A stretch of 47,813 nucleotides of DNA, taken from NCBI GenBank assembly GCA_015068845.1, contig SVJR01000008.1, positions 1-47,813 on the forward strand, read 5' to 3'. Made by a program: the position numbers and the translations under genes. Every line of letters starts with the position of its first letter. Position 1 is the stretch's first letter. This document shows positions 931-43,897 of the stretch, in pieces. This DNA is from Oscillospiraceae bacterium (GTDB lineage: Bacteria > Bacillota > Clostridia > Monoglobales > Monoglobaceae). A model generated the notes under the pieces. The model was not told the DNA's origin. It did no database searches and saw only the letters and a list, made by a program, of their open reading frames with translations.

Positions 931-3234
931 TTACTTACCCGAATTCTCCAAATCTTTGTTACGGATTTCAACACGGCGAACCTTGCCGCTGATTGTTTTT
1001 GGAAGCTCGTCAACAAAATCAACTATTCTGGGGTATTTGTAAGGAGCGGTATGTGTCTTTACATATTCCTGAATTTCCTTTTTCAGTTCATCTGTACCAA
1101 CAGTTCCTTTTACGAGAACTATTGTTGCCTTTACTATCTGACCTCTAACCTCGTCGGGTACAGCGGTGATTGCACATTCAAGAACATAAGGAAGCTCCAT
1201 AATAACGCTCTCGATTTCAAACGGGCCTATGCGGTAGCCTGAAGACTTGATAACATCGTCAATTCTTCCCACATACCAAAGATAGCCGTCTTCGTCCATT
1301 GTTGCCTGGTCTCCGGTGTGGTAGTAGCCGTCGTGCCAAACATCCTTGGTCTTTTCGTCGTCAAGATAGTAGCCGATGAACAAACCGCAGGGGGTGGTAT
1401 CCTTTGTACGGACACAGATTTCACCGGTATCACCAATCTGGCATTCCTTGCCATCAGGGTCAAGCAGAACAACATCATAAAGCGGTGAAGGTCTGCCCAT
1501 TGAACCGATTTTAGGTGTGGAACCAACAAAGTTGGCGATTGAAAGGGTGGTTTCGGTCTGGCCAAAGCCCTCCATTATTTTAAGACCGGTTGCCTTAAAG
1601 AACTGGTTGTAAACCTCGGGGTTAAGCGCCTCGCCTGCTGTTGTTGCGTATTCAATGGAGGAAAGGTCGTACTTGGACAAATCTTCTTTAATGAAGAAAC
1701 GGTACATTGTGGGTGGTGCGCAGAATGTTGTGATATTGTACTTTTTAAAGAGAGGAAGTATATCGTCCGGATGGAAGCGGTCAAAGTCATAAGTGAACAC
1801 GCCTGCTTCGCACAACCACTGTCCGTAAAGCTTGCCCCAGAGCGCCTTGCCCCAGCCAGTGTCTGAAATTGTGAAGTGCAGACCGTCGGGGTTGACATTG
1901 TGCCAGAACTTTGCGGTGGGATAGTGCCCTAAAGCATATTTGTATGAATGTGTGGCAATTCTGGGATAGCCTGTTGTACCTGAAGTAAACAGCATAAGCA
2001 TCGGGTCGTCACCACAGGGCGAGTTTTCTTTGCGGTTAAAATGTGTGCTGAAACGCTCCATTTCCTCGTTGAAGTCATACCAGCCGTCCTTTTTGCCTCC
2101 AACCAGAATTTTGAGCATTCCGGGAAATTCTGCGGCTGCCTTTTCTGCCTCGGTTGAAACATCACCGTCAGCGGTGCAAACAATAGCCTTAACGCCTGCT
2201 GCCTTATATCTATATTCAAAGTCGTGCTCAACCAGCTGGTTGGTTGCAGGAATTGCGATTGCACCAATCTTGTGAAGTGCCAGCATACAGAACCAGAACT
2301 GATAGTGGCGCTTGAGAACCAGCATAACCGTATCACCGCGCTTGATGCCGAGTGACTCAAAGTAGTTTGCGGTTTTTGCAGAATATTTTTTCATATCACT
2401 GAAGGTAAAGGCACGCTCGGATTTATCGTTACTTACCCACATCATAGCTACTTTGTCGGGTGATTTCTTTGCAATCTTATCAACACAATCAAATGCAAAG
2501 TTGAACTTATCATCATTTTTAAAGGTGATTCCGTTAAACACACCTTTTTCGTCAAGAGTGGTTTCGATGAAGCCGTCTGCAACAGTTTTTGCAGCTACCT
2601 TTGCAGCTGTTGCGGCTTTTGCAGCAATGAACGGTGCTTCGGGATATTCCTCGCTGAAGTGTCCGTCCTGAGGGTTGAGAACAACTGCGTGGAATTCGCA
2701 GCCGCCTTCGCTTACAGCAATCATACCGTGAGGAATAATACTGTTATAGAAGATGGAGTCACCCTCGTGAAGAATATCAATGTGATTGCCTACCTGAACC
2801 TTAAGCGAGCCTTTGACGATTACATCAAATTCCTGACCGTTGTGCGAGTTAAGCTTGATAGGGGTATTCTGTTCCTCTTCAAGATAAGGGAACTTAACAA
2901 GGAACGGTTCAGCAAGCTTATCCTTGAATTTGGGGGCAAGGTTGTTGTAAACAACACCCTGCTTTTTTATAATTTTAAGACCCTCGCCTTTACGGGTAAT
3001 GGCAAAGGAGGTAAGAGTCGAACTTGTACCCTCCAAAATATCAACAACTTCAACATTGCAAGCCTTAGCACACTTGTAAATAAAGGTAAAGCTGAAGTCT
3101 GTTTCGCCTTCTTCAAGGATTTTATAATCCTCAACTGTCACACCGGTGAGCTTTGCAAGCTCTTCCTGGGTGTAGCCTTTTGCTTCGCGCAGGTCCTTGA
3201 TTCTTCCTGCAACTTCTTTCAAATTGTAATCCAT
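931..3234 (-). CDS. HTH-cupin-AMP-forming acyl-CoA synthetase fusion
   Basis: A 767-residue three-part protein. Residues ~1-65 form an XRE-type helix-turn-helix (RIKDLREAKGYTQEELAKLTG); ~85-170 a cupin barrel; ~215-765 an AMP-forming acyl-CoA synthetase that makes acyl-CoA and pyrophosphate/AMP from a carboxylate, ATP and CoA. Seen in the ligase: P-loop LFTSGTTGYPR near 415, YYHTGD, the hinge GRIDDVIKSSGYRIGPFEIE near 660, and the catalytic lysine in PKTISGKVRR near 748. I place the start at the internal ATG behind AGAAAGGAGC rather than the ATG 11 codons earlier, which has no ribosome site. A T-box reading ATC (Ile) precedes it, so I infer a branched-chain acid, perhaps 2-methylbutyrate, as substrate. 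The real substrate is unproven. The HTH might let it regulate genes or be only a structural relic. Confidence 0.88.
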   Translation of the reverse strand: MDYNLKEVAGRIKDLREAKGYTQEELAKLTGVTVEDYKILEEGETDFSFTFIYKCAKACNVEVVDILEGTSSTLTSFAITRKGEGLKIIKKQGVVYNNLAPKFKDKLAEPFLVKFPYLEEEQNTPIKLNSHNGQEFDVIVKGSLKVQVGNHIDILHEGDSIFYNSIIPHGMIAVSEGGCEFHAVVLNPQDGHFSEEYPEAPFIAAKAATAAKVAAKTVADGFIETTLDEKGVFNGITFKNDDKFNFAFDCVDKIAKKSPDKVAMMWVSNDKSERAFTFSDMKKYSAKTANYFESLGIKRGDTVMLVLKRHYQFWFCMLALHKIGAIAIPATNQLVEHDFEYRYKAAGVKAIVCTADGDVSTEAEKAAAEFPGMLKILVGGKKDGWYDFNEEMERFSTHFNRKENSPCGDDPMLMLFTSGTTGYPRIATHSYKYALGHYPTAKFWHNVNPDGLHFTISDTGWGKALWGKLYGQWLCEAGVFTYDFDRFHPDDILPLFKKYNITTFCAPPTMYRFFIKEDLSKYDLSSIEYATTAGEALNPEVYNQFFKATGLKIMEGFGQTETTLSIANFVGSTPKIGSMGRPSPLYDVVLLDPDGKECQIGDTGEICVRTKDTTPCGLFIGYYLDDEKTKDVWHDGYYHTGDQATMDEDGYLWYVGRIDDVIKSSGYRIGPFEIESVIMELPYVLECAITAVPDEVRGQIVKATIVLVKGTVGTDELKKEIQEYVKTHTAPYKYPRIVDFVDELPKTISGKVRRVEIRNKDLENSGK

Positions 3235-8251: not shown

Positions 8252-9640
8252 ATGAAAAAGATTAACATTTCAGACATTACTCTTAAAAAGCTTTCAGGGG
8301 AGCGGGAGGTTGCCCTTTTATTCCGTGAAAAAACAGCTGTTGCTGCCTGTGCGGACGCTCTGGGCGCAGATGCAGTTGAGCTTGCCCCGATAAAGAACTT
8401 GCGTGAAGATACTATTATATATAAAACAATTGCACAGAATGTTCAAAGTGCAGTACTCGCTATCCCTGTCGGTTTCAGCACTGAGGAGGTGCAGTCTGCC
8501 TGGGAATGCATTAAGGCTGCAAAAAAGCCTCGTCTCCAGATTGAACTTCCGGTATCTACCGTTCAGATGGAGTATACATATCATATAAAAGCGGATAAAA
8601 TGCTTGCGAAAATCGGCGAATTGATAAAGTTTGCAAAAGAGCTCTGCGACGATGTGGAATTTTCAGCACTCGACGCAACTCGTGCAGATGAGGATTTCCT
8701 CATTGCCGCTGTAAAAGAAGCAGAAGCAAACGGTGCCGGCACAATCACTGTTTGCGATGATGCAGGAGTATCACTGCCTGAGAATATTGCTGAACTGGTT
8801 GAGAAAGTGAAGGGCGCAGTTAGTATTCCCGTATGCGTTCAGATTTCAGACCGTATAAATATGGGCGTTGCTGCGGCTGTTGCGGCAGTATCAAAAGGTG
8901 CTGACGGACTCAAGTGTGCTATGGCGGGTAAAGATGTGCTTCTGACGGGTGAGATTTCAGATGCATTCAGCATTTGTTCTGCACAGATAGGTGCTGAAAT
9001 AAATCTTAACAGAACAAAAATTCATACAAGTATTGACGATATGCTTGCGAGCATTAATCACGATGCATACGAAACAGAAAGCTCTGTAAGCGAGAAAAAG
9101 AAGATTCTGCTCGACTCCGATGCAACATTGGCTCAGGTCGAACAAGCGGCAAGAATTTTGGGTTATGACCTTTCCGATTCAGATTGCGGTAATGTGTACA
9201 AAGCACTTCTTCAGGTTTGTGAAAAGAAGGATGCAGTAGGCGCAAAGGAGCTTGAAGCACTTATTGCAAGCTCTGCTATGCAGGCACCTTCAACATATCA
9301 TCTTGAAAGTTACACAATCAACAGCAGTAACCTTACCGGCTCTATGTCCCAGGTTACATTGAAGTGCAATGATGAGATTATTTCCGGTGTAAGCACCGGT
9401 GACGGTTCAATTGATTCTGCATTCCGTGCGATTGAACAATGTATAGGTTACCACTATGAGCTGGATGATTTCCAGGTTCAGGCAGTAACAGAAGGTAAAG
9501 AGGCATTAGGCTCTGCATTGGTAAGACTCCGCAACAACGGAAAGCTTTATTCCGGAAACGGTATCTCGACTGATATCGTTGCGGCGAGCATCAGAGCGTA
9601 TATCAATGCCCTGAACAAGATTATGTTTGAGGAGGAATAA
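8252..9640 (+). CDS. LeuA-like (2-isopropylmalate synthase family) protein lacking catalytic residues
   Basis: 462 residues. Residues ~1-275 resemble the DRE-TIM barrel and ~347-460 the LeuA C-terminal regulatory domain (TYHLESYTINSSNLTG to SGNGISTDIVAASIRAYI). The active site is gone: where LeuA has DTTLRDGEQ this protein has SDITLKKLSGERE, and where LeuA has the metal-binding HxHND it has VQISDRINMG. It should therefore not make 2-isopropylmalate. I infer a regulatory or scaffolding pseudoenzyme that may sense leucine. AAGGGAG precedes the ATG. It stands directly after a Leu T-box and ends one base before the next gene, whose ribosome site lies in its last codons (translational coupling). 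It could also have gained a new, unknown activity. Confidence 0.75.
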   Translation: MKKINISDITLKKLSGEREVALLFREKTAVAACADALGADAVELAPIKNLREDTIIYKTIAQNVQSAVLAIPVGFSTEEVQSAWECIKAAKKPRLQIELPVSTVQMEYTYHIKADKMLAKIGELIKFAKELCDDVEFSALDATRADEDFLIAAVKEAEANGAGTITVCDDAGVSLPENIAELVEKVKGAVSIPVCVQISDRINMGVAAAVAAVSKGADGLKCAMAGKDVLLTGEISDAFSICSAQIGAEINLNRTKIHTSIDDMLASINHDAYETESSVSEKKKILLDSDATLAQVEQAARILGYDLSDSDCGNVYKALLQVCEKKDAVGAKELEALIASSAMQAPSTYHLESYTINSSNLTGSMSQVTLKCNDEIISGVSTGDGSIDSAFRAIEQCIGYHYELDDFQVQAVTEGKEALGSALVRLRNNGKLYSGNGISTDIVAASIRAYINALNKIMFEEE

Positions 9641-9641
9641 G

Positions 9642-12101
9642 ATGAAAATTGTATTTTCAACTAAAAATGTAAATCGTGCATCCTTCCTTGATACCTGCCG
9701 GTATGCTTATGATTATGGGTTTGCAGGGTTTGAAATATATGATGCAATTAAAGAGCGCAGCCAGCATCACGACAGTATTCTGCGCCGTGACCGCATCGCT
9801 GACGCAAAGCGCAAGCTCATTAACCGAAATATATCAGTTTCTGCACTCCGGATACCTGAACCTGTAGAAAGCGATGAAGTGACTGCCGATATAATCTCAA
9901 AATATATAGATATGGCGGCAAATTCGGGCATTGAAAATATCATTGTTCGTGTTGAAGAAGAAACAGCATTTGATGCGCTGAACAAGAAGCTCTCGGATGC
10001 GATAAAGCGTGCCGAGAAAGCCGATGTGGGAATTTTGTTTGAAACAGTCGGCTACCTTTCTGACACCGAAAAGGTTGTAGACATAATAAACTTTTTCTCT
10101 TCTGCGGCAATCGGCGCATCGTGGAATGTACGGGGTACATATTTCGGTGCGGGCGAAACGGCGGAAACAACAATCAAAACCCTTGGCGCATATATAAAGT
10201 ATGTGCGACTGGGCGATATGAAAGACGGAAAGACCGTTTTAATCGGCGAGGGCGAATTGCCGGTTAAGGAATTACTCAACGCCCTCTCGTCGCTTAATTT
10301 CGACGGCTTTATCTGTGCGGCATGGAATGAGGAAATAAATGATGCAGATATTGTGCTGACACATTTTGCAAATTATATCTCAGCACTCCGCCGTGAGAAG
10401 AAGAGCTTCGAACACGCATACTACAACAGAGCAAAAACCGGCACCTTTGTTTGGAAAAAATATGATGTTATCGATGAAACCTTCTCAGGTGTTCTCGACA
10501 CAATGGTTGAAAAAAATCCCGATCAGTATGCATTTAAATATCCTACCCTTGATTATACAAGAACTTATGAACAGTTCCGCCGCGATGTTGATGAATGTGC
10601 AGCAGCTTTGATTTCTCTGGGGGTAAAAGCCGGTGACCATGTGGCTGTGTGGGCAACCAATGTCCCCGAATGGTTTATTGCTTTCTGGGCAACAACAAAA
10701 ATCGGTGCGGTACTGGTTACAGTGAATACGGCATATAAGATTCACGAAATTGAATATTTGCTGAAGCAGTCGGATACCCATACCCTTGTGATGATTGAAT
10801 ATTGCAAGGATATTAATTACAAAGAAATTATTCAGGAGCTTTGTCCCGAGCTTGAAAGCCTCGCACCTGGCCAGCCTTTATATTCGAAAAATCTGCCATT
10901 TTTACGCAATGTCGTAACAGTTGGATTTTCAATGCAGGGCTGCCTTACATGGGAGCAGATGCTTTCCCGTTCCTCGCTTATCCCCCGTGAAGAAGTACGC
11001 AGACGCGCATCTCTCGTTAAACCCGACGATGTATGTAATATGCAGTACACATCGGGAACAACCGGATTCCCTAAGGGCGTTATGCTCACCCATCGTAACA
11101 TAGTTAACAACGGTAAAACAATCGGTGACAGAATGGATTTGTCAACAGCCGACCGTATGATGATTCAGGTGCCTATGTTCCATTGCTTCGGTATGGTACT
11201 TTCAATGACATCGATGATGACCCACGGCGGAACCCTTTGTCCAATCCCGTATTTCTCACCTAAATCATCGCTTGCTTGCGTTAATGACGAGCATATAACC
11301 TGCTTCAACGGCGTTCCGACAATGTTTATTGCAATGTTCAACCATCCGGATTTTGCAAAGACAGATTTCTCGTATATGCGAACAGGTATTATGGCGGGTG
11401 CCAACTGCCCTGCAGATTTGATGCGCCGTGCCGCAGACGAAATGAATATGCGTGAAATTATATCCGTATATGGTCAGACCGAGGCTTCTCCCGGCTGCAC
11501 AATGGGTGAGGTTAACGAGGATATAGACCACCGTGTTGAAACAGTAGGCAGTCCGTTCCCCGGCGTTGAATGTAAGGTTATTGACCCCGAAACCGGCGAG
11601 GAACTCCCCGACGGCGAAAGCGGCGAATTTGTTGCTCGCGGCTTCAATATTATGAAGGGCTATTACAAAATGCCTGAAGCAACTGCACAAGCGATAGACG
11701 CTGACGGCTGGCTTCATTCAGGAGATATATGCTGTCGTACACCTGACGGCTATTACAAGGTAACGGGCCGTCTTAAGGATATGATTATCCGCGGCGGCGA
11801 AAATCTCTACCCCCGTGAAATTGAGGAGTTCTACCTGACCAATCCCAAAGTGCGTGATGTTCAGGTGGTTGGTGTTCCTGATGAAAAATACGGCGAAGAA
11901 TGTTGCGCCTGGATTATTCTGCATAAGGGCGAAACAGCTGACGAAAACGAAATGCGTGAATTCGGCAATGCGTATATTGCACGGCATAAGGTTCCCAGAT
12001 ACTTTATATTTGTCAATGAATTCCCGATGAATGCCGCAGGTAAAATTTTAAAATACAAAATGCGCGATGAATCCGTGGAAATTCTTGGACTGAAAAAATA
12101 A
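9642..12101 (+). CDS. TIM-barrel-acyl-CoA ligase fusion protein
   Basis: 819 residues. Residues ~1-255 look like the sugar phosphate isomerase/endonuclease IV TIM barrel (FLDTCRYAYDYGFAGFEIYD, LFETVGYLS, GEGELPVKELL). Usual metal ligands appear partly lost, since RLGDMKD stands where a His is expected. Residues ~275-819 are an AMP-forming acyl-CoA ligase: P-loop YTSGTTGFPKGVMLTH near 468, YGQTEAS, hinge GRLKDMIIRGGENLYPREIE near 708, catalytic lysine in NAAGKILKYK near 800. The ATG used lies behind GAGGAGGA, five codons into the longest frame. Coupled to the LeuA-like gene under a Leu T-box, so I infer activation of isovalerate or another branched acid. A fatty acid substrate cannot be ruled out. 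Confidence 0.85.
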   Translation: MKIVFSTKNVNRASFLDTCRYAYDYGFAGFEIYDAIKERSQHHDSILRRDRIADAKRKLINRNISVSALRIPEPVESDEVTADIISKYIDMAANSGIENIIVRVEEETAFDALNKKLSDAIKRAEKADVGILFETVGYLSDTEKVVDIINFFSSAAIGASWNVRGTYFGAGETAETTIKTLGAYIKYVRLGDMKDGKTVLIGEGELPVKELLNALSSLNFDGFICAAWNEEINDADIVLTHFANYISALRREKKSFEHAYYNRAKTGTFVWKKYDVIDETFSGVLDTMVEKNPDQYAFKYPTLDYTRTYEQFRRDVDECAAALISLGVKAGDHVAVWATNVPEWFIAFWATTKIGAVLVTVNTAYKIHEIEYLLKQSDTHTLVMIEYCKDINYKEIIQELCPELESLAPGQPLYSKNLPFLRNVVTVGFSMQGCLTWEQMLSRSSLIPREEVRRRASLVKPDDVCNMQYTSGTTGFPKGVMLTHRNIVNNGKTIGDRMDLSTADRMMIQVPMFHCFGMVLSMTSMMTHGGTLCPIPYFSPKSSLACVNDEHITCFNGVPTMFIAMFNHPDFAKTDFSYMRTGIMAGANCPADLMRRAADEMNMREIISVYGQTEASPGCTMGEVNEDIDHRVETVGSPFPGVECKVIDPETGEELPDGESGEFVARGFNIMKGYYKMPEATAQAIDADGWLHSGDICCRTPDGYYKVTGRLKDMIIRGGENLYPREIEEFYLTNPKVRDVQVVGVPDEKYGEECCAWIILHKGETADENEMREFGNAYIARHKVPRYFIFVNEFPMNAAGKILKYKMRDESVEILGLKK

Positions 12102-15824: not shown

Positions 15825-16037
15825 ATGTCAAACAACAATAACAGAAACAAGACAATGGTACCCGAAGCAAAGGCTGCTATGAACAGATTTAAGATGGAAG
15901 CTGCCAACGAAGTAGGTGTACAGCTTAAAGACGGTTACAATGGTGAACTCACATCAAGACAGGCGGGTTCTATCGGTGGCCAGATGGTAAAAAAGATGAT
16001 CAAAAAGTATGAAGAGGACTTAGCTAACGGTCAGTAA
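15825..16037 (+). CDS. Small acid-soluble spore protein, alpha/beta type
   Basis: A 70-residue DNA-binding spore protein that coats forespore DNA and protects it from UV and heat. Seen: the first helix VPEAKAAMNRFKMEAANEVG, which contains the GPR protease cleavage region (KMEAANEVG), and the second conserved segment LTSRQAGSIGGQMVKKMI. The N-terminus MSNNNNRNKT is Asn-rich, as is the mini-protein at 18009. GAGGTGA precedes the ATG. Family members are made in the forespore under SigG; an exact SigG promoter is not certain from reading alone. Confidence 0.95.
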   Translation: MSNNNNRNKTMVPEAKAAMNRFKMEAANEVGVQLKDGYNGELTSRQAGSIGGQMVKKMIKKYEEDLANGQ

Positions 16038-41904: not shown

Positions 41905-41937
41905 TCTGTCAATAATTGTACTGAGGTGATAAGCTTT

Positions 41938-42105
41938 ATGAAGATTACAAGGTATGTAAACGGCAAAAGAACAACAAAACCCTTTGATGACAGTACGGTT
42001 ATTGAAAAAGCGGAAATTTCAAGTGTAATAAGCAGAGTAAACCACAGACTGTCGGGCTTGCAAACAGAAACAAATTCAAATATCAGCGGAGCAGAAGATG
42101 AATAA
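41938..42105 (+). CDS. 55-residue protein coupled to the serine recombinase (possible recombination directionality factor)
   Basis: Too short for routine gene calling, but GAGGTGATAA precedes its ATG and it overlaps the recombinase start by eight bases. The peptide begins MKITRYVNGKRTTKPFDDST, is charged, ends acidic (SGAEDE) and has no membrane segment or zinc motif. I know no family. Small proteins beside serine integrases are often directionality factors that permit excision; this is inference from place and size only. Confidence 0.6.
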   Translation: MKITRYVNGKRTTKPFDDSTVIEKAEISSVISRVNHRLSGLQTETNSNISGAEDE

Positions 42106-43453
42106 GATTGCTGCAATCTATATCAGAGTTTCCACGGATGCGCAACGGGAAGAAGGATATTCAATTGATGCTCAAAAGGAAATGCTTACGGCATACTGCG
42201 TGTCAAAAGGCATAAAAAAATATGAGTATTATATTGATGGTGGATTCAGTGGCAGCAATATTGAACGCCCGGAGTTGAAACGCCTTATTGAAGATGTTAA
42301 AAAGGGCAAAATAGGTTGCGTTCTTGTGTATAAGCTTGATCGCCTTTCCAGAAGCCAAAAGGATACTTTATACCTCATAGAAGATGTATTTAATCCTCAT
42401 AATGTTGACTTTATCTCTCTTAACGAAAGTATGGATACATCAACCCCTCTTGGTCGACTGATGCTCGGAATTCTTTCAGCATTCGCGCAATTGGAGCGTG
42501 AAAATATCAAGGAACGAACCAGTATGGGTATGAAGGAGCGGGTCAAGGAAGGCTACTGGATGGGCGGCGGCAGAGTTCCGTTTGGCTATGATTATGACCA
42601 AAGCCGAGGCATTCTTGTCCCCAATCGTGATGCCGAAACTGTCAGGAGAATATACGAGCTGTACCTTGACGGCTATTCGCTTAATTCGATTGCCAGAATG
42701 CTCGGGCTAAGATACGAAAAGCTTGCCCGGCAAATACTGATGAGGAAAAGTAATGCCGGATACATTGTCTATAACGGCGAGGAATATAAGGGCAGACACG
42801 AGGCTATTGTCAGTCTTGAAACCTACGAAAAGGCAATGCAAAAAATGCAGGAGCGTTCGGGGAAATTCAAAGGCAGCACGCAAAACCTCCTGACGGGGCT
42901 TGTCAGATGCGGGATATGTGGCGCAAAAATGCGATACCAAAGGTGGGGAAAGCAGGGCTACCGGCTTGTGTGCTATTCAAAGGATAAAAGTAAGCCCCAT
43001 CTTGTGAAAGACCCGGACTGCACCAATGGCGGAATATGGGCGACCGAACTTGAAAATGTGGTTAAGGAAGACCTTTTCAGTATTGGAGTAAAGACACAAA
43101 ATAATAAAAAAGTTGACGAAAAGGATGTCCTTGAAATACTGAAAGAGAACGAGGCAAAGATTACGGAAAAACTCAAACGCCTTTACAATCTCTATGCCGA
43201 AGCGACAGACGATGCTTTGAAGGAAACGATTGCGGAAGCTAAAAAAAGCCTGAGCGAACTTCAAAGCCAGATAAGCCGCGAAGAAAAGCAAAAAATTCTT
43301 TCCCGAAACCGCCGTGAAATAAAAAAACAGCTTTCCACATTAAGAGAAAGCTGGGGATATATGACCGACAGAGAAAGGCGCAAAGTAGTGGAGAGCTGTG
43401 TTGAGGAAATTACCGTCGCAAATGAAGATGTTGAGATTTACTACAAATTCTGA
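42098..43453 (+). CDS. Large serine site-specific recombinase (SpoIVCA/phage integrase type)
   Basis: 451 residues. Resolvase domain ~1-150: IYIRVSTDAQ with catalytic Ser12, KLDRLSRSQKDTLYLI, ILSAFAQLERENIKERTSMG. Recombinase domain ~160-260 (GYDYDQSRGILVPNRDAETV). Zinc ribbon from ~270 (CGICGAKM with later Cys pair), then a coiled coil (~345-420) as in integrases that choose attachment-site pairs. Its stop codon is 18 bases from the point where the facing sigG sequence is broken. This is how skin recombinases such as SpoIVCA stand beside the sigK 5' half. No other phage genes are near. Confidence 0.94.
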   Translation: MNKIAAIYIRVSTDAQREEGYSIDAQKEMLTAYCVSKGIKKYEYYIDGGFSGSNIERPELKRLIEDVKKGKIGCVLVYKLDRLSRSQKDTLYLIEDVFNPHNVDFISLNESMDTSTPLGRLMLGILSAFAQLERENIKERTSMGMKERVKEGYWMGGGRVPFGYDYDQSRGILVPNRDAETVRRIYELYLDGYSLNSIARMLGLRYEKLARQILMRKSNAGYIVYNGEEYKGRHEAIVSLETYEKAMQKMQERSGKFKGSTQNLLTGLVRCGICGAKMRYQRWGKQGYRLVCYSKDKSKPHLVKDPDCTNGGIWATELENVVKEDLFSIGVKTQNNKKVDEKDVLEILKENEAKITEKLKRLYNLYAEATDDALKETIAEAKKSLSELQSQISREEKQKILSRNRREIKKQLSTLRESWGYMTDRERRKVVESCVEEITVANEDVEIYYKF

Positions 43454-43758
43454 TTTCCCATAAGGACATTTATTGGCACAGCGTAAGTAGAAAATTTAAC
43501 GCCGTGGGATGTGTCAAAGTTATCAAGTGCTTTGATGAGTCCGATGCACCCTACTTGAAATAAATCATCAATGTTCTCGTTTCGGTTCGAAAATCTCTGT
43601 AAAACGCTCAGAACAAGTCTGAGATTGCCGTATATAAACTCCTGTCTTGCAGAGGTGTCGCCCTTTTGGATTTTTTCAAAAAGCTCTCTTTTCTGTGCTT
43701 CGTTCAGAACGGGGAGCTTTGATGTATTTACTCCGCATATATCAACTTTGTTAATCAA
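43441..43758 (-). pseudogene. sigG: 5' part of sporulation sigma factor gene sigG, interrupted
   Basis: From a TTG start with AAGGGGG eight bases upstream, the frame reads INKVDICGVNTSKLPVL, then GNLRLVLSVLQRFSNR, DDLFQVGCIGLIKALDNFD and KFSTYAVP, a clear match to SigG, the late forespore sigma factor (~260 residues). After ~95 codons the match ends: SigG continues with MIIGEIRRYLRDNN, but this frame gives ten unrelated residues and stops. The product would have region 2.2 for core binding but no region 2.4, 3 or 4. The break coincides with the end of a serine recombinase gene. The 3' half is nowhere in the window. Confidence 0.85.
43465..43480. other. Putative attachment junction in sigG
   Basis: SigG-coding sequence is intact (minus strand) up to GTGCCAAT (43472-43479) and foreign immediately after. 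A shared core at or near GCCAAT is expected if a serine recombinase joined two sites here. The exact crossover dinucleotide cannot be fixed without the partner site. Confidence 0.55.
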
Positions 43759-43897
43759 CTTTTTGACCCCCTTTTTATTTTCCATAATATTATCTCACAA
43801 ACAGACTATGGATATACAGAAAAATAATTCCGTGTCTGAGAAATCATAAGTTAAACCTCGAGTGCATAAAGTAGTTTTAAAAAGGGGGAATTATCCG

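Follow-up and report, generated by a model that had tools for sequence, protein, structure and literature searches.

Split sigG genes and their serine integrases in Clostridia: a probable programmed rearrangement of a forespore gene

The gene of the sporulation sigma factor SigG is cut into two separate halves in the bacterium studied here and throughout its genus, and recombination in silico between the sites at the two cut ends restores the reading frame. The stretch of DNA analysed (the window, 47,813 bp) is contig C9 of a 1.30-Mb bin that is 79% complete and consists of 45 contigs. Most probably, sigG serves as the attB of a phage-derived integrase, and its halves are joined in the forespore as a programmed event and set apart again after germination. 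The initial annotation had proposed that sigG is split by a site-specific recombinase and can be restored in the fashion of the skin element. This proposal is supported by the finding of the 3' half, by the association of the recombinase with the split and by co-varying arms with a CC core, which join the halves in frame in 44/44 pairs.

The gene of the large serine recombinase (integrase) occupies positions 42098–43453 of the plus strand. Its product contains the Resolvase catalytic domain, the Recombinase domain and the zinc beta ribbon Zn_ribbon_recom (Pfam PF00239, PF07508 and PF13408), which are the features of large serine recombinases, and matches the integrase family phrog_95. The catalytic RVS-type motif is found in all 91 related recombinases. 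The recombinase gene is convergent with sigG and ends where the element-side arm of attL begins. This arm (positions 43454–43474, about 21 bp) has its inverted-repeat partner beside the 3' half at about C23:2113–2133. The sigG 5' half (region 2 side) lies on the minus strand at 43475–43785 and is open from the ATG at 43785 to the CC crossover dinucleotide. The native sequence stops at this CC (plus-strand GG, 43475–43476), at codons AVP|M; past it, ten foreign codons are followed by a stop at 43441. The whole minus-strand frame 43441–43785 corresponds to the N-terminal half of SigG with 168 bits over profile positions 3–97 of 258 in NF006071, for which the cut-off for a whole SigG is 372 bits. 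By this model the target gene is sigG. The broken sigG adjoining a recombinase, as described in the initial annotation, is thus confirmed together with the convergence of the two genes, and two details are refined: the TTG proposed as the start is not the sole option, since the ATG at 43785 fits too, and the edge lies at 43475 instead of 43472. The recombinase stop codon is separated from the break by 21 bp.

A small ORF of 59 aa (41926–42105, plus strand) overlaps the start of the recombinase gene. Members of the same small-protein family are found upstream of the recombinase in 79/91 loci by a permissive iterated search, and no Pfam family matched the 59-aa ORF. That it may be the directionality factor of the integrase is a guess. 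Inspection by eye of the region upstream of the recombinase operon revealed nothing convincing as a sporulation-type promoter.

The sigG 3' half, for which the initial annotation had suggested a search of the whole genome, is present in contig C23 of the same bin (G000; about 1623–2112, minus strand) and begins at the same codon at which the 5' half ends. The bin (79% complete) yielded no further sigG of full length; its other sigma matches score lower and, from their scores and lengths, are read as SigF, RpoD and SigE. The suspicion that the 5' half might be a dead fragment, to be raised by a complete second copy or by a missing 3' half, finds no ground here and is rejected, since the joined frames are open and pN is low. 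Many independent assemblies show the same junction, which makes a join error of the assembly at the break very unlikely. ARAGORN found no tRNA genes at the start of C23 (locus L007). A small ORF adjoining the 3' end of sigG (L007:1013–1423) resembles by eye a DUF559-type nuclease-like protein.

The sigG search covered 60 genomes, including nine of the window's genus and 28 others of the family. The gene is split in 9/9 genomes of the genus, with the 3' half starting at codon VPM in all nine and the 5' half whole in seven, truncated in G002 and not found in G001. In each of the 28 other genomes of the family sigG is full-length, one of these copies containing an internal stop. The recombinase was detected in 7/9 genomes of the genus versus 0/28 of the rest of the family (E up to 1e-60; Fisher p 3.5e-6). 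Its orthologues adjoin 7/7 of the 5' halves fetched and form one clade in the recombinase tree with a support of 100/100.

The genes beside both junctions in the genus look like ordinary chromosome. A DMT-type transporter gene (named by eye, with a match to NCBIfam TIGR00950 below the cut-off) adjoins 9/9 of the 3' halves, whose element side carries trkH and trkA in 4/9 genomes; the element side of the 5' half carries an amidohydrolase gene, BCAT and korB (these two in 6/7) and korABC, all named by eye. No phage genes were seen among the ORFs named by eye beside the junctions. The suggestion that the arrangement repeats the skin trick holds for the split by a recombinase and for the restorable frame; a compact skin-like element is not supported in the window's genus, as ordinary-looking chromosomal genes flank both junctions.

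Where both halves were found in the genus, they always reside on different contigs. In G006 the contig of the 5' half extends for about 138 kb on the element side and 39 kb on the other side without the 3' half, and that of the 3' half extends for about 37 and 58 kb from it; because these flanking stretches lack the other half, the two are at least 77 kb apart. GC skew assigns the 5' half to the lagging strand in 7/7 cases and the 3' half to the leading strand in 8/9 (the signal is weak in L046). Two arrangements fit this: inverted halves within a single chromosome arm, or direct halves with one on each arm. Neither a joined sigG nor an attP was seen in any genome of the genus.

The carriers of the split gene retain genes of spore formation. 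Those of SASP were found in 7/9 genomes of the genus (in the window at 15846–16022) and in 30 of the 36 genomes searched. The six genomes without a SASP match include two of the genus and G400, which has a split sigG and is 95% complete; absence from incomplete bins says little. The window also encodes SpoIVB, Spo0A and YlmC/YmxH.

In the class as a whole, a close recombinase was detected in 10 of 391 genomes, and sigG is cut at the same codon in 10/10 of them; only the 3' half was found in the carriers G053 and G216. A scan of species genomes yielded 214 recombinase relatives. Dozens of other Clostridia combine such a relative with the same split, two of them with contigs of chromosome-like size (4.006 Mb in G474 and 3.213 Mb in G470). 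Among the best 80 of the 214 loci, a sigG half lies within the fetched stretch in 55, and the recombinase stands without one in 25, several of these on short contigs. In 15 of these 80 loci the recombinase gene stops no more than 150 bp from the sigG 5' edge, each time in convergent orientation; in 27 it stops equally close to the 3' edge, each time in co-directional orientation. The recombinase adjoins sigG in the window's genus and is unlinked to it in some other lineages.

Of the 48 genomes with such relatives that were searched, 39 hold both halves at separate places (G455 with a partial 3' match), five show one half, and two (G435 and G445) have an intact sigG plus a half or both halves; G444 and G453 have the recombinase and gave no sigG match at the cut-offs used. 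The bins of G435 (L264) and G445 (L265) may contain the intact gene through contamination or as a true second copy. The genus of Agathobaculum sp. Marseille-P7918 shows the association as well: only G471 and G481 among its 25 genomes have an intact sigG, and the recombinase occurs in 15/18 genomes tested, all 15 with a split sigG. The three without it are G471, G481 and G483, in the last of which only the 5' half was found. One locus with a recombinase and a sigG 3' half (L151, JAISZW010000141.1) is titled as a methanogenic archaeon, which is most likely a binning mistake.

The geometry of the two halves varies among these relatives. Seven pairs found on the same contig are direct and 2.5 to 170 kb apart: about 15–25 kb in G431, G424, G428, G423 and G451, 170 kb in G460, where the insert is a large prophage, and about 2.5 kb in G429 (L128, WRAX01000001.1, about 8401–10946), the smallest sigG insert. 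The L128 insert holds genes for tRNA-Thr and tRNA-Trp, both of which would be removed by excision. The halves are inverted over 41 kb in G458 and over 757 kb in G474, in the latter spanning a change of GC-skew sign between the sampled positions 1.9 and 2.1 Mb. In G470 the halves are direct with reversed order, so that their join would release a 112-kb circle bearing sigG. A contiguous direct insert is thus found in the seven same-contig relatives and not in G458, G474 or G470. From their size, the 4.006- and 3.213-Mb contigs are taken to be whole chromosomes.

The 23 distinct element-side arms of the 5' edge pair as reverse complements with the 44 distinct arms of the 3' edge, and the site combined from both reads approximately TTTCGACnnnnGACATTCATn-CC-nATGAATGTCnnnnGTCGAAA. 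The arms are conserved across families over about 21 positions with 1.03 and 0.99 bits per position (47 and 49 rows); farther out the values drop to 0.11 and 0.13. With a profile built from 3'-side arms alone, the 5'-side arms reach a mean of 21.5 bits, and random stretches of the window give -27.1 bits with a standard deviation of 9.7; the lowest 5' arm, with 2.1 bits, falls below the 99.9th percentile of random stretches (3.8). The set of arms includes genomes with the halves on separate contigs and eight with the recombinase beside neither half; G440 was excluded from the arm and join counts since its 3' edge is unreadable, which leaves 44/45 pairs. In 44/44 pairs both sides have CC as their central dinucleotide. 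CC is not self-complementary, and hence only the correct ends should join. The two arms of one genome match at 15.8/21 positions versus 12.6 for arms of different genomes, and the observed mean was reached in 0/10,000 permutations. Inheritance from different founding phages, rather than selection, could partly account for this likeness within genomes.

Joining attL with attR in silico leaves the sigG frame open in 44/44 pairs. The joined SigG of the window scores 455 bits with NF006071 and passes its cut-off of 372, which neither half does alone; it narrowly misses TIGR02850 (443.6 versus a cut-off of 457). Three of the four joined proteins tested pass NF006071 (G317 misses it) and none passes TIGR02850. 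Both halves are under purifying selection: silent sites within the genus are saturated (pS 0.77), whereas pN is as low as 0.09 in 21 pairs of 5' halves and 0.17 in 36 pairs of 3' halves. The highest pN/pS of any 3'-half pair, 0.57, is perhaps caused by ungapped pairing with a row that holds one extra codon.

The source of the recombinase appears to be phages whose attP fits sigG. A profile scan of the retrieved loci identified four IMG/VR contigs with an intact palindromic site of the sigG type just past the recombinase, and two of the four, on examination, carry phage replication, lysis or tail proteins; two attP consensus patterns had no exact match in IMG/VR. The complete phage Dulem virus 39 (PP511791.1) has an integrase with 44% identity and a similar palindrome just past its gene, as judged by eye and not scored. 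Unlike in this virus, no phage genes were noticed by eye beside the junctions in the window's genus, and the integrase there appears to be kept by the host. Location types (labels assigned manually) and phages are interspersed in the recombinase tree, which suggests several acquisitions from phages followed by domestication.

The orientation of CC in attP relative to the integrase gene differs between L192 on the one hand and L194, L195 and L199 on the other, and the same difference exists between hosts with the recombinase at the 5' half and those with it at the 3' half. A sigG half stands beside the recombinase in L354 (MT839977.1, titled Bacteriophage sp.) and in L191, L196, L197 and L198 from IMG/VR, so these records either include host flanks or are bacterial DNA. 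In phages L192 (L192:10980–11633) and L194, attP is followed on the side away from the recombinase by a gene for a protein of about 185 aa, which in the integrated state lies beside a sigG half; in G460 it lies at the 3' half, 170 kb from the recombinase at the 5' half. The gene is also found at L128:8442–8999, with further matches in L297, L120, L294, L295, L261 and L307, and is weakly similar, below the cut-off, to the homing-endonuclease repeat PF18780. It is possible that this protein is a second player or a marker of the other end of the element, and it is a further candidate for the directionality factor.

These data can be combined in the following mechanism. The chromosomal sigG would serve as attB for a subfamily of phage-derived large serine integrases, and integration, or recombination of attP with attB between distant places of one chromosome, may have cut it at AVP|M. 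The products would be attL (the 5' half with a phage arm, beside the recombinase) and attR (a phage arm with the 3' half, here on another contig), and the hosts would have maintained the two halves as well as the two sites in functional form. The integrase alone would hold the split (OFF) state in growing cells. SigG acts in the forespore, and there the addition of a directionality factor, perhaps the small upstream protein, would allow attL to recombine with attR and rebuild sigG. After germination the integrase alone would recombine attP with attB and split the gene again. No rearranged DNA was seen in the genomes; we infer that recombination is ongoing, and likewise its timing, the cell in which it happens, the role of a directionality factor and the reset. 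The initial annotation had pointed out that a change in the forespore, the cell that survives, would be inherited or must be reversed; an integrase that runs the reaction back to the split state once the directionality factor is gone, as reported for the sigK element of C. difficile (PMC5025042), is a possible answer, and through the re-splitting a change made in the surviving cell would not be lost.

It is also conceivable that sigG varies by phase, i.e. that the integrase flips it in a few growing cells before asymmetric division and only these cells complete sporulation. This would agree with the inverted pairs (41 kb in G458, 757 kb in G474), which are placed as in invertible switches, and the present data do not indicate cell type and timing. 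On the other hand, the action of serine integrases is directional, the reaction of attL with attR requiring a partner (PMC5025042), the CC core is not self-complementary, and many pairs are direct, so that flipping would lose DNA in growing cells. We regard this explanation as unlikely.

Two-part sigma factors are known, SigO/RsoA of Bacillus subtilis being an example, and the halves of SigG might similarly be made as separate proteins that assemble into a working factor, the recombinase and its sites then being relics or concerned only with phage-like moves. The function of such proteins would by itself explain why both halves are open and under purifying selection, and the 3' half often has a possible start codon (ATG, GTG) at the cut. 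The 21-bp arms, however, lie outside the coding halves and would be needless for separate proteins, yet they are conserved and co-vary. Moreover, the tails with which the 5' halves end are unconserved and range from 3 to 195 codons, and the internal ATG of the 3' half has a Shine-Dalgarno-like motif before it in 4/49 cases versus 31/91 for recombinase starts, which is a weak test. A split protein is thus distinctly unlikely.

Very little credence can be given to passive insertion, with sigG as a mere landing site of phages and the carriers as lysogens that sporulate poorly or never; the halves would then still be there owing to the youth of the events or to excision on induction, which would free sigG from time to time. 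At least one insert is indeed a large prophage (about 170 kb in G460), phages with a sigG-type attP exist, the recombinase tree suggests repeated acquisition, and SASP was not found in 6/36 genomes. Against this stand the 44/44 open joined frames, the arms conserved across families, the saturated silent sites in the genus along with recombinases of a single clade (100/100), and the retained spore genes. Finally, an assembly or binning artefact has practically no chance of being the cause: most genomes are metagenome bins and the halves in the genus are never on one contig, but the same edge base occurs in many assemblies from different projects, in the 4.006- and 3.213-Mb contigs, which are about as long as a genome, and in records not titled as MAGs.

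A programmed join in the forespore, the explanation we prefer, has one demanding consequence. The rearrangement of sigG affects the cell that founds the next generation and therefore has to be undone later; just such a set-and-reset switch would be provided by a serine integrase whose directionality factor is timed. Chances slightly short of even are given to its boldest form, in which a domesticated integrase inverts or divides the forespore chromosome at each sporulation, assembles sigG and restores the order after germination. If this is true, the moved unit in the window's genus, in G474 and in G470 is a part of the chromosome and not a mobile element. The split is present in many gut Clostridia and could act over hundreds of kilobases or by inversion, and many gut bacteria probably must rearrange their own chromosome to form spores and then undo the change. 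The split may also lead annotation pipelines to call sigG missing or broken in sporulating species. Cultured relatives of Agathobaculum allow the mechanism to be tested directly.

In B. subtilis the skin element works with SpoIVCA, and spsM matters in the mother cell. No described sigG element was found in the open-licence PMC literature, which holds no preprints and few subscription papers. Like other elements that intervene in sporulation genes, the split sigG has a cut gene with both halves kept, a recombinase beside it, and attL and attR that restore the frame; a mother-cell target, the defining feature of skin and gin, is not what sigG offers.

As in skin, growing cells have a late sporulation sigma gene in two parts, one of which adjoins a large serine recombinase gene, and recombination of attL with attR restores the frame, here in silico. 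The direction of skin is set by a small partner: in C. difficile sigK, CD1231 alone integrates and needs CD1234 for excision (available parts of PMC5025042). Unlike skin, the split affects sigG of the forespore, which survives, and not sigK of the mother cell, which dies; the recombinase belongs to another subfamily and may be unlinked, the relatives include inverted or chromosome-scale pairs, and excision is known for skin and predicted here.

The gin element in gerE of Bacillus cereus ATCC10987 is a 28.6-kb discrete direct insert in one mother-cell gene, and it resembles the split sigG as a non-phage or reduced insert in a small sporulation gene, with a serine recombinase and a partner (GirC, GirX); wide conservation across lineages, as seen for sigG, is not described for gin in the accessible portions of PMC5595907. 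The SPbeta prophage sits in spsM of Bacillus subtilis and thus, like the G460 prophage, represents a temperate phage in a sporulation gene that is rebuilt by excision, in a different gene (PMC4191935, as far as accessible). In these partly accessible sources, the rearranged sporulation genes (skin, gin, SPbeta) are mother-cell genes with discrete inserts. The evidence supports the view that the split sigG works like skin, but with a target that acts in the forespore and with some variants whose join would invert the chromosome or divide it.
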